Origin: Bacilli bacterium
Lineage (GTDB): Bacteria; Bacillota_I; Bacilli_A; RF39; UBA660
Assembly (NCBI GenBank): GCA_017484065.1
Contig: JAFUTX010000021.1
Coordinates: 1-64,000, forward strand
Direction of reading: 5' to 3'
Length of the DNA: 64,000 nt
The position numbers were made by a program, and so were the translations under genes. Under the pieces are notes generated by a model that saw only the letters and a list, made by a program, of their open reading frames with translations, was not told the DNA's origin and searched no databases. Below are positions 14,899 to 28,184 of the stretch, piece by piece. Position 1 is the stretch's first letter, and each line of letters starts with the position of its first letter.

Positions 14899-15399
14899 AT
14901 GAGAGAAAAAGTTATAAATAATATATGTAATATATTTAATACAGATGTAGAAGAGTATGATAATATAGTTACTATATCTCAAATGATAAAAGATAGTTAT
15001 AAAAGTATATATAATTCTAAATATTTATTTAATGATAGTACTTATTTTATGAATTTGAAATTTAAATTGTTTATCGAAGATATAGATAAGTCGGATATGA
15101 TTAGTAAAAAAGTAATTAGAAGAAATAATGATATACTATTAAATAAAAAACATCGAAATAGCAATCCTGATTTATATGATTATTGTATAGATTTAAGTAA
15201 AGAATTTTCTAAATTAGTCGATATGGAATTATTTTATATGATGGAATATTGTAGTAAGAGTAACATTAATTTAACAGAACATGAATTATCATGTTTAGAT
15301 TTTATGAAAAGTTTGGGCAATTTTTATTTAGAAGAAACAAATGAGTTATTTAATATAATAAATAATAATGATAATTATAGTTTGAAAAGGAATAAATAG
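14899..15399 (+). CDS. Unknown helical protein, first gene of the ClpX-like cluster
   Basis: A 166-residue, mostly helical, Asn/Asp-rich soluble protein that I do not recognise. AAGGAG lies ~10 bases before ATG. The next gene starts 4 bases after its stop, and the ClpX-like gene follows, so it may be a partner or adaptor of that unfoldase. No motif supports a specific function. Confidence 0.55.
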   Translation: MREKVINNICNIFNTDVEEYDNIVTISQMIKDSYKSIYNSKYLFNDSTYFMNLKFKLFIEDIDKSDMISKKVIRRNNDILLNKKHRNSNPDLYDYCIDLSKEFSKLVDMELFYMMEYCSKSNINLTEHELSCLDFMKSLGNFYLEETNELFNIINNNDNYSLKRNK

Positions 15400-15402
15400 T
15401 GT

Positions 15403-15822
15403 ATGAATGAGGTTTATAAGTGTTGTTGTAGTATGTGTCATAAAATTAGTTATGTGAATGAGGATAATCTTTATCCAGGGATTGACTATAATAAAAAAGG
15501 TGAAGGATTTCTTGTTTTCCAAATACAATGTCCAGAGTGTTTAGCATTAAGTAATGTAAATTTAGATGATATACCTAATGATATTAAACTAAGCAAAATG
15601 CAAGAATATGCTGGATTTATTAATAAAATGAAACAAGTTCTTATAATAGATAGAATGATTAAGGAATTAGATGAATATAAACATACTTTAATAGATGAGA
15701 TAGATATAATAAAAAATGATCGAGATATAAATCATTTGTATAGCAATTGGCAAGATAATGAGTTTGTTTTAGAACATCCAGATAATCCTAGTGGAAATAA
15801 AAAGAAAAAATATCACTTGTAA
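15403..15822 (+). CDS. Zinc-ribbon protein next to ClpX-like unfoldase
   Basis: A 139-residue protein with a Cys-rich N-terminal module: CCCSMC (residues ~6-11) and, about 35 residues later, CPEC, the spacing of a zinc ribbon. The rest is a helical, charged domain (~65-110) and a Lys-rich tail. Four bases separate it from the upstream gene. Authentic ClpX carries a Cys4 zinc module at its own N-terminus; the ClpX-like protein encoded next lacks it, so this could supply the module in trans. That is inference from position only. Confidence 0.6.
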   Translation: MNEVYKCCCSMCHKISYVNEDNLYPGIDYNKKGEGFLVFQIQCPECLALSNVNLDDIPNDIKLSKMQEYAGFINKMKQVLIIDRMIKELDEYKHTLIDEIDIIKNDRDINHLYSNWQDNEFVLEHPDNPSGNKKKKYHL

Positions 15823-15873
15823 ATAAAAACACTTTAATATATACTATAAATCATATTTAAGGAGTGTTTAGTT

Positions 15874-17493
15874 ATGAGTGATTTTGAAGAAAGAATAGCT
15901 ATTATTTTTGATAAAAAAGATAGATTATGGGAAGCTAGTTTAATAACGATAGTTGATTATTATAAACCAAATAGATCATTTGATATAAAAATTGGAGATT
16001 TAAAGCATGAAGATTTTGATGAATTCAATTTGGTTACTGGAGATCCTCACTTTATTGAGAATGATGATACTATATTAGAATTAAGTTATGAAGAGGAAGA
16101 TAATAATCGAGCTATTTATATTTTTGAAAATACATATGCTGATGAGATAATTAATAGACATAAATTCAATGATGAGGATGCGTTCTTTTATATTGCCAAA
16201 AGAGCTTTAAATATATCATTAATTGAAAACGGCGATTTTTTAATTAGTAAAAACACTCACAAAAAAGATTGGAAATCAGAAGAAATAATTGATTTATTAA
16301 GTGGTACTTTAGCTAGCGAAGAAGTTACATCTAATACTAATAATGGCATAGGGATAATGATTCCAATACAGATAATGCCAGATGAAATCAGAAAAAATAG
16401 TTTAGAAAAACTATATAAAAGCCACAAACAAAAAGAAGAAAGAGTGATTTCTGAAAATATAGATGTGAATAGAATCATTGATGAAATAAGTTCTAAAATA
16501 GTAGGTCAAGAAGAAGCAATTAGAACTCTAGTTGCAAATATTTATTATAATCAATTATTAATTGAAAGTTTAGAACAAAAAGAAATTGATAATCCACTGC
16601 TACTTGATAGTAGTAAGATAACTATTTTACTAGATGGGTCAACTGGTACTGGTAAAACGGCAATTATGAAAGATATAGCTACTAAATTTGGCTTACCAAT
16701 AGTAATTACGAATTCAAATAGTTTTTCGGAAACTGGTTATGTTGGTCCAACTATTACTGATTTATTAGAAAAACTAATTCATCAAGCTAATGGTGATATT
16801 GAACTAGCCCAGAAGGGAATAATAGTTTTAGATGAAATTGATAAACTAGCGGTAAATACGAATATAGTAGGACGAGATATGAAACAAGGCGTTCAAGAGG
16901 AACTTCTTGGGTTTATAAGCGGCGGAGAATATGAAGTAGTTTTAGGTAATGGCCCATTTGCTGAAAGAATAGACTTTGATACAAGTAAATTAACTTTTAT
17001 TTTAAGTGGGGCATTTACTGATTTAAGAGATAATTTAATTAAAAAACAAGAAACTAAATCAATAGGTTTTAGTAATGGACTTGATAACACTAAAGATAAG
17101 ACTTATGTCATTACTCCAGAAGATTATATTGATTATGGTTTAAAAAGAGAATTTTTTGGTCGGATAAAAGTACTTGCTAGCACAAAAACATATATGGTGG
17201 AAGATTTAAAAGAGATTCTATTATCTTCTTTGATAAGTCCCTTGAAAAATTTAGAAGAAACAGTTAAATTGTTCGGTTATAAAGGAATTACGTTCAATGA
17301 AGAATTCATTGATAAAATAGCTATGGAAGCTTATAAAATGAACACAGGAGCTAGAGCATTACAAACTATAATATCTGGTATTCAAAATAACTTATTAATG
17401 GCTTTAATTAATAAAGATTTTACTGAAGATTATATTGATTTATCAATTAATTTATATAAAGAATATGAAAAGAGTAGAGTTAGAAAATACTAA
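15874..17493 (+). CDS. ClpX-like AAA+ unfoldase with unknown N-terminal domain
   Basis: A 539-residue protein. Residues ~1-195 are an unrecognised acidic domain in place of the zinc-binding domain of ClpX. Residues ~200-539 are a ClpX-type AAA+ module: Walker A G255-STGTGK-T262, pore loop G288-YVG-291, Walker B with D320-E321, and sensor 2 in NTGARALQ. The tripeptide I397-G-F399 stands where ClpX has the IGF loop that docks on ClpP, so it may feed ClpP. It probably unfolds a special set of substrates chosen by its N-terminal domain or its two neighbours. It is not the housekeeping clpX, which is ~410-430 residues with a Cys4 start. Confidence 0.8.
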   Translation: MSDFEERIAIIFDKKDRLWEASLITIVDYYKPNRSFDIKIGDLKHEDFDEFNLVTGDPHFIENDDTILELSYEEEDNNRAIYIFENTYADEIINRHKFNDEDAFFYIAKRALNISLIENGDFLISKNTHKKDWKSEEIIDLLSGTLASEEVTSNTNNGIGIMIPIQIMPDEIRKNSLEKLYKSHKQKEERVISENIDVNRIIDEISSKIVGQEEAIRTLVANIYYNQLLIESLEQKEIDNPLLLDSSKITILLDGSTGTGKTAIMKDIATKFGLPIVITNSNSFSETGYVGPTITDLLEKLIHQANGDIELAQKGIIVLDEIDKLAVNTNIVGRDMKQGVQEELLGFISGGEYEVVLGNGPFAERIDFDTSKLTFILSGAFTDLRDNLIKKQETKSIGFSNGLDNTKDKTYVITPEDYIDYGLKREFFGRIKVLASTKTYMVEDLKEILLSSLISPLKNLEETVKLFGYKGITFNEEFIDKIAMEAYKMNTGARALQTIISGIQNNLLMALINKDFTEDYIDLSINLYKEYEKSRVRKY

Positions 17494-18786: not shown

Positions 18787-19809
18787 ATGCAATTATTAGA
18801 TAATTATTATGAACATAAATTGCTACATTTTATAGATATACACGATAATGTTATATTAACTAAATTAAAACCACACGATTTACACAGACTTTTAAATCTT
18901 TTAAATCATTATAAATTAAGATTAAGAAATAATATAGGTTTAAATAAAAATATTACATTTGGATACGAATTAGAAATGGAATATGTCGATAAAATTAAAA
19001 TGGCTGATGTTTGGTATAAAGAAGAATACTCAAAAAAGTATGAATATAAAAATGATGGTACTTTAAATGATGGGGTAGAGATCGCTAGTCCTATTTTGAT
19101 GGATGAGAAAAAAACATGGAATCTTTTAGTTCAAATATGTAATATATGTAATGAATTTGGTAGTATTGGGCCAAATTCAGGAGGGCATATCCATATAGGA
19201 GCTCACTCACTTAATTATGAAAAAGATGAATTATTGAATTTCTTATATTTGTGGGCTTGTTTTGAAAACGTAATATCTCGTTTTAGTTATGGTTTATTTC
19301 TTAATCACCGACCAGCATTAAAAAGTTATGCTAAACCAGTAGCATACTCTTATAGTAAAATATATAGTGAATATAAAAATTCTAAATATGCTAGTATTCA
19401 TGATATTATCAAAAGATTAAGTTATTCTAAAAATTTAGCAATTAACTTTAAAAATGTAAAAGATTTTAATAAACAAGCATATAAAAATACTATTGAATTT
19501 AGGACACCCAACGAATCATTAAATCCCATAATAAAACAAAATGAGATTTTACTTTTTTGGAAATTACTAGAATATGCTAAAAATAGTAACTTTGATTATG
19601 ATAAAGTAAAAAGTATTTACTTAGAAAACTATGAAAGATTTAGTGATGTAAATAGTTATAATAAAATATATTTAAGTCAAGCTATTATACTTGCTGATAT
19701 GATATTTGATAATAATCTAGATAAGTTATACTTTCTAAGACAATATATTAAATCATTCCAAGTAAGTGAAAAAAGTATGGTCAAGGCTAAACAGTTTACT
19801 AAATATTAA
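18787..19809 (+). CDS. Amidoligase (COOH-NH2 ligase-type) enzyme
   Basis: A 340-residue protein matching the Amidoligase_2 family, ATP-dependent carboxylate-amine ligases related to glutamine synthetase and glutamate-cysteine ligase. Metal- and ATP-binding residues are visible: GYELEMEY with E61, E63 and E65, the segment DGTLNDGVEIASP with E98, and SGGHIHIG with H134 and H136. Such enzymes were predicted (Iyer and co-workers) to build peptide or amide links in secondary metabolites and cell-surface modifications, often next to GNAT enzymes, as here. The substrate is unknown. It ends at a strong terminator. Confidence 0.85.
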   Translation: MQLLDNYYEHKLLHFIDIHDNVILTKLKPHDLHRLLNLLNHYKLRLRNNIGLNKNITFGYELEMEYVDKIKMADVWYKEEYSKKYEYKNDGTLNDGVEIASPILMDEKKTWNLLVQICNICNEFGSIGPNSGGHIHIGAHSLNYEKDELLNFLYLWACFENVISRFSYGLFLNHRPALKSYAKPVAYSYSKIYSEYKNSKYASIHDIIKRLSYSKNLAINFKNVKDFNKQAYKNTIEFRTPNESLNPIIKQNEILLFWKLLEYAKNSNFDYDKVKSIYLENYERFSDVNSYNKIYLSQAIILADMIFDNNLDKLYFLRQYIKSFQVSEKSMVKAKQFTKY

Positions 19810-21447: not shown

Positions 21448-21548
21448 GATTAATATAGTAAATAAAAATAAAATGTGCAAGTAATTATATCTTTATCTTT
21501 TTATAAATTATGATATAATAGTTTCATTGATGTTAGTAGGTGCAACTT

Positions 21549-24221
21549 ATGAATATAACTGTTGATTATATCAAAAAGACTGATGTAAACATAATCTATA
21601 AGAAAATTCAACCCTCGATTAAAATAGCATTAGACTATTATAATTTTTTGGATTTTGATATTAATTCTTTTGATAGAATATGTAAAGAAGAAATTGAAAA
21701 TAGCAAATCTACATATAAATGTGGAGAGTATACTGAATATATAAAAGGTAAGATTATAACAAGATTAGCTAATATAACAATAGATTTATTAGCAGATAAT
21801 ACCAAATCTAATTATTTATTAAATAATTATATAAGTAAAAAGTTTAAGATAACTAATGAATATAAAATAAATAAAAATTATTTAAATGATTTTGGTAACT
21901 TTTTGGAAAAGCATAAATATATACCTGATGTACCGATGCTAACTCATCTTTTAGAAAACGCTTTATTAAATAATTGCTTAATGAATATTTTAAATGAAAA
22001 AGAAAAAACGATTATTGATGGTCAGCTATATACATTGAATTATAATAATACTAGTGCACTATTAATAGAAATATATTGTGATATTAATGGGATAGAAATA
22101 AAGGATAATAATGAAATATATTACGATACAGATTTTCAAACGAATGATATTACAAAGCAATATTTAATTGAAATATCGAAACATAAACTTTTAACTTATG
22201 ATGAGGAGCAAGAACTAGGTAAAAAACTGCTTGATGGAGATGAGAACGCTTCTAAAATATTTATTGAGAGAAATCTTAGACTAGTTGTACATATAGCTAA
22301 AAGATATACAGGTAAAGGATTAGATTTTATTGACTTAATACAAGAAGGTAATTTAGGGTTAATGAGAGCTGTAAAGACATATGACTATACAAAAGGTTAT
22401 AGATTTTCTTCTTATGCTACTTGGTGGATTAGACAAGGAATAACAAGAGCAATAGCTGATAAAAGTCGAAATATTCGTTTACCAGTTCACTTACATGGAC
22501 AAATTAACAAATACATAAGAGAAAAAGCAGAATTACAGAATAAATTTAATAAAAAGTTGACCATCGAACAATTATCTTTTTTACTAAATATATCTATTGA
22601 AAAGATAAAAGAATATGAACAATTAATACATGAAACTATAAGTTTAAATGCTAATTACTCCGATAAAGATGACGAATCTGAATTAGGAGATATAATTGCT
22701 GATAACAAGATAGAAAAACCAGAAGATATAATTGATACATTAGGCTTAAAAGAAGCTAAGGAAGCTATTAATAAGGTACTTGATTCTTTTTCAGATAAAG
22801 AAAAGAATGTTATAAAGTTAAGATATGGCCTAGCTGATGGAAAAATACATACTTTACAAAGTATAGCTAATAAATATAATCTTACTAGAGAAAGAATCAG
22901 ACAAATTGAAGAAAAAGCATTAAGAAAATTAAGGCGTCCTACTATAGCATTGGAATTAGCTGAGTTTACGGATAATCCAAATGAGGCTAAAGAATATATT
23001 AAAAGATATAATAATATATATTTTGGCATTGTTGATGAGAATAATGTAGTTATTAACCCAATAACTAACGTGAAGAAAATGAAAGGTACTGATGAAAAAA
23101 TGAAAATAAAAATGAAGACAATAGAAGAACTATTTGAATTTTTTAAAGATTATACACAAGATGAAGTCATGCAAGCTATTAGTAAACTAAAAGAAAGAGA
23201 TAGAGACTTGATAAATAGATATTTTTCTCCAGAAGGTAATGTAAATTTTGAAGAAAAAAGAAGATTTAGACAAACTATATTATCTAATATTAGTAAATTA
23301 TTGATAGATCCTAATTATGTAAATAAAAGAGAGCAAACCTTATACGATGTTTTAAGAAAATATTCTAAGGAAGAAATTGATTTGGCTGTATCAAAATTAA
23401 AAGATGAATACAGGAATGTTTTAATCAAAAAATACAATGGTGATTTTAGTAGTATTCCAAATTCTTCAAATTTAACAGAATCTGAAAAAAGACAAATGGG
23501 TGTTATTTATAGAAGTATTAGAGAAATAATAGCTGGAAAAGATATTAAAACAATTAAAGTTGCAAGATATAATAGTATATATGAATATCTTAATAATTAT
23601 AGTGAAAGTGAAATTAATATTGCCATTAACGAATTAAGCGATAAATATAAACAATGTTTAAAATTAAAATATGGTGAGGATTATAAAAGTTCTAATCAAC
23701 TTGATAAAGAAACATCAGATTTATTTTATGGCTCAGTAATACCTAAACTTAAGAAAATATTAAAAACAAATAGAAATATTAAAGAACAAAATTCAAAAGA
23801 TAATATTGTGAAAGCAAGTGATATAATATCTAGTACTATAGAAATAAAAAACCAAGAAAAAGAAGTAGAGACACCAGTAATAAGTGGAGAAGTAATTAAA
23901 CCTACTGAAGTTAATTCTAGTGCGTTTAATAAAAGTGATTTAAATAAAATATTAGAACTTTTAAGAACTCCAACTTTTGGTGAATTAATGACTTCATTAA
24001 GCGCTAAAGATGCGGTAATCATATCTCTTAAATTAGGATATGTTGATGGAAAATATTTTAGTACCGAAGATATAGCTAATTTCTTACAAATATCTAATGA
24101 AGAAGTTATAGAAACAACTAAGAATGTATTATTAGCTTATAAAAATAGCTTTAATGAATTCTTAGATAATGCTATTGCAGTTGCTACTGATAATCCATCT
24201 TTGCAAATAAAAAAGCAATAA
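21549..24221 (+). CDS. Giant sigma-70-family factor with region-4-like repeats
   Basis: An 890-residue protein. Residues 1-~200 are unknown. Residues ~205-465 are a complete group-2-like sigma factor: region 2 with [27 protein letters not shown] and [13 protein letters not shown], region 3, and region 4 ending [18 protein letters not shown]. After this come ~425 extra residues with three repeats (starting ~523, ~597, ~675), each like region 4.1 ([44 protein letters not shown]), and a last module (~804-865) that looks like a second whole region 4 ([17 protein letters not shown] ... [14 protein letters not shown]). It could redirect RNA polymerase to a special set of promoters. ATG 21549 follows AGTAGGTG. 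It is distinct from rpoD at 35.2 kb. Confidence 0.85.
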
Positions 24222-27290: not shown

Positions 27291-28184
27291 ATGTACAATG
27301 AAATAGATCAAGAGCAAATAAGAAGATATGAAAGACAATGTTTCAAAGAGTTAAAATTAAAAGAGAATAAGAATAAATTAAATATTAATGATAATATAGA
27401 TATTTTATATACTAAAGATTATATTCTACAAGATTATTCAAACAATGGTGATAGCGGTAATTTGATTCTAGCAGTTAATAAGAATAATATTTTAGAAAAA
27501 TACATTGTAAAACATGCTTATTATAATAGTGCTTGTAATGAATATATATATTCTAAAGTAGCTAATAAATTAGGTATATCAACTCCTCAAGTTAAATTAT
27601 TTATAAATAATAGTAATTCTAATAAATTAACAAGTGATTTTGTCTGTGGCATTGAGTATTTAGATAGTATTAAGCAAGTCAAATATAATGATTTAATTAA
27701 TAATATAGAATACGTAAAAACTTATTATAAAATGGTAATATTAGAATTAATATTTGATCAAAGTGATGGTATTGAATACTATGAATATAATAATAAATTA
27801 TATCAACTTGATAATGCTGAAACATTTGGATTAGATTTTTATGATATATCACCACTTGCCTATAATTTCAATAAAAATGGTATTAATATTAGAGAGTTTA
27901 CTATTAAAAGATTAATGAAAAAAATCAATAATCCAATGGTAAATAGGGTAGAGTGGTGGAGGAAAAGATTTGAACAATTAATCGATAAATATGGCGAAAT
28001 TTTTAATCACTGTTTAGATGAAATTATAAGTGATTTCATGAATATTACTGAAGAGGAAATAAATGAATGGATAGAAACAGTTACTATTATCTATCCAGAT
28101 GCAATTGGTGAATATTATTTAAATTATTTTAAAACTCTAAAATTAGATTTAAGTTCTATAATCGAAAATATAAAAACAAGATAG
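27291..28184 (+). CDS. HipA-like (PI3/4-kinase-type) kinase-fold protein
   Basis: A 297-residue protein with features of the HipA/CtkA kinase fold: a phosphate-anchoring Lys in YIVKHA (K74), a conserved Glu in CNEYIYSKVANKLGI (E84), a catalytic-loop-like FDQSDG (D156, D159) and a metal-binding-like YQLDNAETFG (D174). The order and spacing suit an atypical Ser/Thr kinase, but the standard HipA catalytic motif is not exact and no HipB-type antitoxin gene adjoins. GGAGG lies 7 bases before the ATG. It ends in a strong terminator. It could act on a partner such as the LRR protein or on a translation factor. Confidence 0.55.
   Translation: MYNEIDQEQIRRYERQCFKELKLKENKNKLNINDNIDILYTKDYILQDYSNNGDSGNLILAVNKNNILEKYIVKHAYYNSACNEYIYSKVANKLGISTPQVKLFINNSNSNKLTSDFVCGIEYLDSIKQVKYNDLINNIEYVKTYYKMVILELIFDQSDGIEYYEYNNKLYQLDNAETFGLDFYDISPLAYNFNKNGINIREFTIKRLMKKINNPMVNRVEWWRKRFEQLIDKYGEIFNHCLDEIISDFMNITEEEINEWIETVTIIYPDAIGEYYLNYFKTLKLDLSSIIENIKTR

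Follow-up and report, generated by a model that had tools for sequence, protein, structure and literature searches.

Does this locus encode a dedicated degradation module, in which a ClpX-type unfoldase with an unusual N-terminal domain is served by the two small genes that precede it, or does the unfoldase stand on its own? The window, by which we mean the whole analysed stretch of 64,000 nucleotides, is contig C23 of genome G000 (1.19 Mb, 93% complete), and the list of its open reading frames includes exactly the three frames referred to here as genes A, B and C (Table 1). Two small genes do precede the unfoldase gene, and one of them encodes a zinc-ribbon protein, as the initial annotation had stated. 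Further along the window there are a putative amidoligase of 340 aa near gene C (PF12224), a sigma-70 family protein of 893 aa whose regions 1.2 to 4 lie within residues 203-465, followed by a long C-terminal extension, and a 297-aa protein with a weak match to a HipA-like C-terminal domain (E = 3e-4, below the curated cut-off).

Table 1. Location of the genes, motifs and related loci discussed in the text (positions refer to the window unless another locus is named)
Feature	Position	Strand	Basis
Gene A, small ORF, 166 aa	14899..15399	+	ORF list
Gene B, zinc-ribbon protein, 139 aa	15403..15822	+	ORF list; CSMC and CPEC knuckles
Gene C, ClpX-like AAA+ unfoldase, 539 aa	15874..17493	+	profile, PDB and structure matches
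Gene C, replaced N-terminal region, residues 1-195	15874..16458	+	family searches, model, alignment with L194
Gene C, Walker A GSTGTGKT, residues 255-262	16636..16659	+	sequence
Gene C, pore-1 loop GYVG, residues 288-291	16735..16746	+	sequence
Gene C, Walker B IIVLDEIDK, residues 316-324	16819..16845	+	sequence
Gene C, place of the ClpX RKH loop, about LGNGPFAERID, without RKH	16942..16974	+	alignment
Gene C, IGF tripeptide, residues 397-399, start of flexible loop 397-409	17062..17070	+	sequence, model
Gene C, GAR sensor-2 motif, residues 492-494	17347..17355	+	sequence
Putative amidoligase	18787-19809	+	
Sigma-70 family protein	21540-24221	+	
Protein with HipA-like match	27291-28184	+	
ClpB lacking N-terminal domain	L063:3736-5841 (G000:C19)	-	
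tmRNA, tag DETNYGFAPAFA	G000:C21:5584-5941 (locus L244)		
Small partner gene of the sister sub-branch	L041:5741-6094, L043:6127-6480, L197:4995-5357, L199:4998-5351, L204:4992-5345, others		
ClpX-like, apparent fused double-AAA	L126:311-2830, L127:4124-6565		
ClpX-like ATPases outside the family	L221:771-2165, L224:3488-4906, L222:3371-4921, L223:3407-5020		

From about residue 195 to its end at residue 539, gene C matches ClpX well above chance level (NCBIfam ClpX model, E = 1.8e-54; ClpX chains among PDB sequences, E = 1.7e-39), and its AlphaFold model resembles ClpX chains with Z scores of 30-33 and HslU with Z scores of 26-28. The Walker A and Walker B motifs, the GYVG pore loop, the IGF tripeptide and the GAR sensor-2 motif are all intact. 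Judged by these motifs and by the arginine-finger region, the predicted product is clearly an intact ClpX-type motor, and the earlier observation that the AAA+ part keeps both GYVG and IGF holds. Gene C has these features of canonical ClpX, with the IGF tripeptide lying in a loop that is exposed in the model, but departs from it in four others, namely the curated score, the Cys4 domain, the RKH loop and the placement in the tree. Against the curated NCBIfam ClpX equivalog models, with cut-offs of 359 and 370.75 bits, it reaches 185.2 and 176.2 bits; against the curated HslU model, with a cut-off of 362 bits, it reaches 74.3 bits.

The most conspicuous difference is the head. Residues 1-195 contain not a single CxxC pair, so the Cys4 zinc domain of canonical ClpX is absent, and this region shows no match to any family in Pfam, NCBIfam, PHROGs or PADLOC; the proposal that a ClpX-type unfoldase has had its Cys4 domain replaced by about 195 residues is thus borne out. 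A weak model (pLDDT of 49 for the N-terminal domain) predicts that residues 1 to about 124 are first beta-rich and then alpha-helical, with strands at 4-15, 18-30, 35-40, 66-74 and 77-84 followed by two helices, and that a disordered linker comes after. The closest orthologue of gene C, L194 (CAMUZE010000012.1), is 43% identical over the full length including the N-terminal domain and 60% identical in the AAA+ part only, and the two N-terminal regions are homologous at 24% identity. On the evidence of this alignment, the two proteins clearly have in common a predicted N-terminal domain that differs from that of ClpX. A single N-terminal domain may be common to all ClpX-like proteins of the family, but the alignment extends over only 26 columns at E = 0.05; a function of gene C as a defence system was discarded, with PADLOC giving only weak generic AAA matches.

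How widespread such proteins are was assessed with a profile built from 22 ClpX-like AAA+ domains, which was run on 243 genomes of the same family of uncultivated Bacilli (E < 1e-40). A ClpX-like gene was detected in 96 of them (about 40%), mostly as frames of 450-850 aa and in some genomes in two to four copies. The Cys4 domain was absent from all of the approximately 85 family ClpX-like genes inspected, and searches of the family's genomes revealed no canonical ClpX; within the class, the canonical ClpX of 400 aa occurred only in other families. In phylogenetic analysis, 25 canonical ClpX sequences, jumbo-phage copies included, were split from the ClpX-like sequences of the family with support values of 100/96. 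Gene C, L194 and L195 form a clade (100/99), and their sister group (100/100) is a sub-branch in which the N-terminal region is helical; a Clp_N domain that had been suggested by eye for this sister sub-branch gave neither a Pfam nor a profile match. As far as protein phylogeny can tell, gene C clearly belongs to a ClpX-like clade separate from canonical ClpX. The contig records of the family members come from uncultured gut Bacilli, and in the published literature that we searched, with incomplete coverage, no description of this clade was found. Two of the ClpX-like chains (839 and 813 aa) show two AAA+ matches each and appear to be fused double-AAA proteins. Outside the family, ClpX-like ATPases lacking Cys4 and carrying other N-terminal regions were seen in Clostridia-type, Nitratiruptor and Moraxella records.

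The second substrate-reading element of ClpX is missing as well. RKH was found at the aligned place in all 22 cellular canonical ClpX proteins compared (RKN in two), and it was absent from all ClpX-like proteins of the family compared, gene C included. Replacement of RKH by AAA in E. coli ClpX abolished the degradation of ssrA substrates (PMC7112951). With both Cys4 and RKH missing from its sequence, gene C is unlikely to recognise ssrA tags in the manner of ClpX. The tmRNA of the window's genome encodes the tag DETNYGFAPAFA, which ends in AFA and not in LAA. It resembles in this respect the tags of Mycoplasma tmRNAs, which end in AFA. A 2008 paper by Gur and Sauer, listed in PMC11986505, is said to describe that the Mycoplasma ssrA tag was switched to Lon. 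The likeness to Mycoplasma suggests that the tag changed in step with the loss of canonical ClpX.

Which partners are available to gene C? A normal clpP is present elsewhere in the genome, with the catalytic Ser, His and Asp residues intact, whereas a normal clpX was not found there by a search with the ClpX model, whose best match was gene C itself at half the cut-off. The genome also encodes a ClpC with a VGF motif (contig C12) and a ClpB without the usual N-terminal domain; in relatives the frames are about as long (700-720 aa). PF10431 had retrieved only ClpB and gene C, which made gene C appear as the sole possible partner of ClpP, but this was refuted when the Clp_N search recovered ClpC. 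The IGF loop of gene C (residues 397-409) is flexible in the model (pLDDT < 50) and not buried, burial being what the initial annotation had named as speaking against its reading. Hydrophobic residues occupy all three docking positions (Ile, Phe and Leu, with Leu at the place of Val274 of E. coli).

The most likely reading of gene C is that of an unfoldase specific to this lineage, which reads substrates with a new head and docks to ClpP where ClpP is available. We consider it probable, if by no means certain, that its clade of single-ring, ClpX-like AAA+ unfoldases either survived canonical ClpX in this family or took its place, and that the head picks the client and the IGF loop docks on ClpP. 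Six copies of C would form a ring, and a client would be selected by the new N-terminal domain instead of a zinc domain or RKH loop, a role that is assigned only by analogy given the low confidence with which the head is modelled. The client would then be pulled through the pore by the GYVG loops and degraded after the IGF loop has, probably, docked on the ClpP of the window's genome, for which ClpC would be the other partner of the IGF type.

The most serious alternative is that the ring acts independently of ClpP, either unfolding or remodelling specific complexes without degradation, as is known for ClpX acting on MuA and for yeast Mcx1, or docking with its xGF motif on another partner. Among the 243 genomes, ClpX-like genes and ClpP do not correlate: ClpP is present in 79 and absent from 17 of the 96 genomes with a ClpX-like gene, and among the genomes without one the corresponding numbers are 121 and 26 (odds ratio 1.0, p = 1, genomes being treated as independent although they are related). 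The same comparison for ClpC and ClpP gives counts of 189/11/14/29 (odds ratio 36, p = 3e-18, with related genomes again treated as independent). For these counts match lists were compiled by hand, and the totals for ClpP and Clp_N were cross-checked against tallies. Twelve genomes have a ClpX-like gene and neither ClpP nor ClpC, and there is a loop-less sub-branch of ClpX-like genes, most of whose genomes do contain ClpP. On the other hand, most members keep the xGF loop, whose retention would be difficult to account for if it had no partner to dock on, ClpP is present in the window's own genome, and incomplete assemblies may account for some of the missing ClpP genes. The motif by itself is no proof of docking on ClpP, since most of the ClpX-like genes of the 12 genomes without ClpP and ClpC keep it; in a rough motif count, xGF was present in the loop region of 18 out of 22 ClpX-like genes from genomes lacking ClpP. 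On these grounds, docking of gene C on ClpP is plausible but not proven, and such docking is no general rule for the ClpX-like clade. Action without ClpP is rather unlikely for gene C itself, yet it is the alternative that deserves to be taken seriously.

Far less probable is the dedicated three-gene degradation module, in which A and/or B would be adaptors delivering clients to gene C and ClpP. The arrangement of the locus is suggestive: the three genes lie on one strand, with three bases between the stop of A and the ATG of B and 51 bases between B and C, where an AAGGAG ribosome site precedes C; no terminator-like site was found between them, and a promoter scan of the locus remained at chance level. 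Moreover, nearly every locus of the sister sub-branch that extends far enough has a conserved gene of 105-120 aa (YEYNGNLLE...) only 2-4 bases downstream of the ATPase. Partners hence do occur in the ClpX-like clade, but this true two-gene module is distinct from A-B-C. Neither A nor B is found beside L194, whose neighbours, named by reading the sequence, are rplS, lepB, an FAD-dependent dehydrogenase and a cation ATPase, and neither gene recurred beside other ClpX-like genes in the first neighbourhoods inspected. The sole clear homologue of gene B (in genome G138, with both CxxC zinc knuckles kept) and the homologues of gene A (in genome G166 only) are located among unrelated genes, apart from ClpX-like genes. 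The A-B-C unit is therefore not conserved, and A and B are better regarded as neighbours of gene C, perhaps co-transcribed with it, than as conserved components. Of the interpretation given in the initial annotation, the unfoldase with a replaced head stands, and the module with its own adaptors is not supported, the three genes lying apart in the other genomes inspected.

That gene C is merely a decaying or mobile-element paralogue of ClpX with no conserved role in the cell is scarcely credible, for although the distribution of ClpX-like genes is patchy (about 40% of genomes), their divergence fast, the one genome of the same genus devoid of them and a tyrosine recombinase gene located upstream, every catalytic motif of gene C is intact, L194 has the same architecture at 43% identity, and many relatives adjoin core genes such as hisS, aspS and rplS-lepB.

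Returning to gene C as a ClpX-like unfoldase with a new head, a broader view may be offered tentatively, and with more doubt than conviction: a separate ClpX-derived class of unfoldases might have replaced canonical ClpX throughout this uncultivated, gut-type family of Bacilli. Heads particular to each lineage would stand in for the zinc domain and RKH, and many members of the class would be free of ClpP and work either alone or with another partner bound through xGF. Few bacterial unfoldases are as strongly conserved as ClpX. In the present case an entire family seems to be without the standard protein and to have a fast-changing version that lost both known substrate-reading parts and keeps the ClpP-docking tripeptide even in genomes lacking ClpP. 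The separate contributions of the IGF loop and of the head, as well as ClpP-free roles of ClpX-type motors, become testable with this clade.

Among known systems, ClpX (NF003745, TIGR00382) is the one that gene C resembles in its large and small AAA+ domains, in GYVG, IGF and GAR and in its fold, but gene C differs from it by the lack of Cys4 and RKH, by another N-terminal domain and by its place outside the canonical branch. HslU (TIGR00390) likewise forms a single AAA+ ring, with the same fold and a GYVG pore loop; gene C differs from it by having the ClpX-typical IGF loop, and the best matches of gene C are to ClpX. The ClpX of Bacillus phage G (gp258) is a ClpX-type ATPase that is 33% identical to gene C in the AAA+ part; in contrast to gene C, it carries RKH as well as two CxxC pairs, groups within canonical ClpX in the tree and adjoins a ClpP-like gene (gp257), whereas gene C is not located beside a ClpP gene. 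The nearest published parallel to the clade of gene C is ClpI of the Actinomycetota, an additional class of Clp unfoldase restricted to one lineage, whose N-terminal domain varies and whose sub-classes have or lack the ClpP-docking tripeptide (PMC10149685), although ClpI is a double-ring protein of the ClpC/ClpB type and gene C encodes a single AAA+ protein of the ClpX type.
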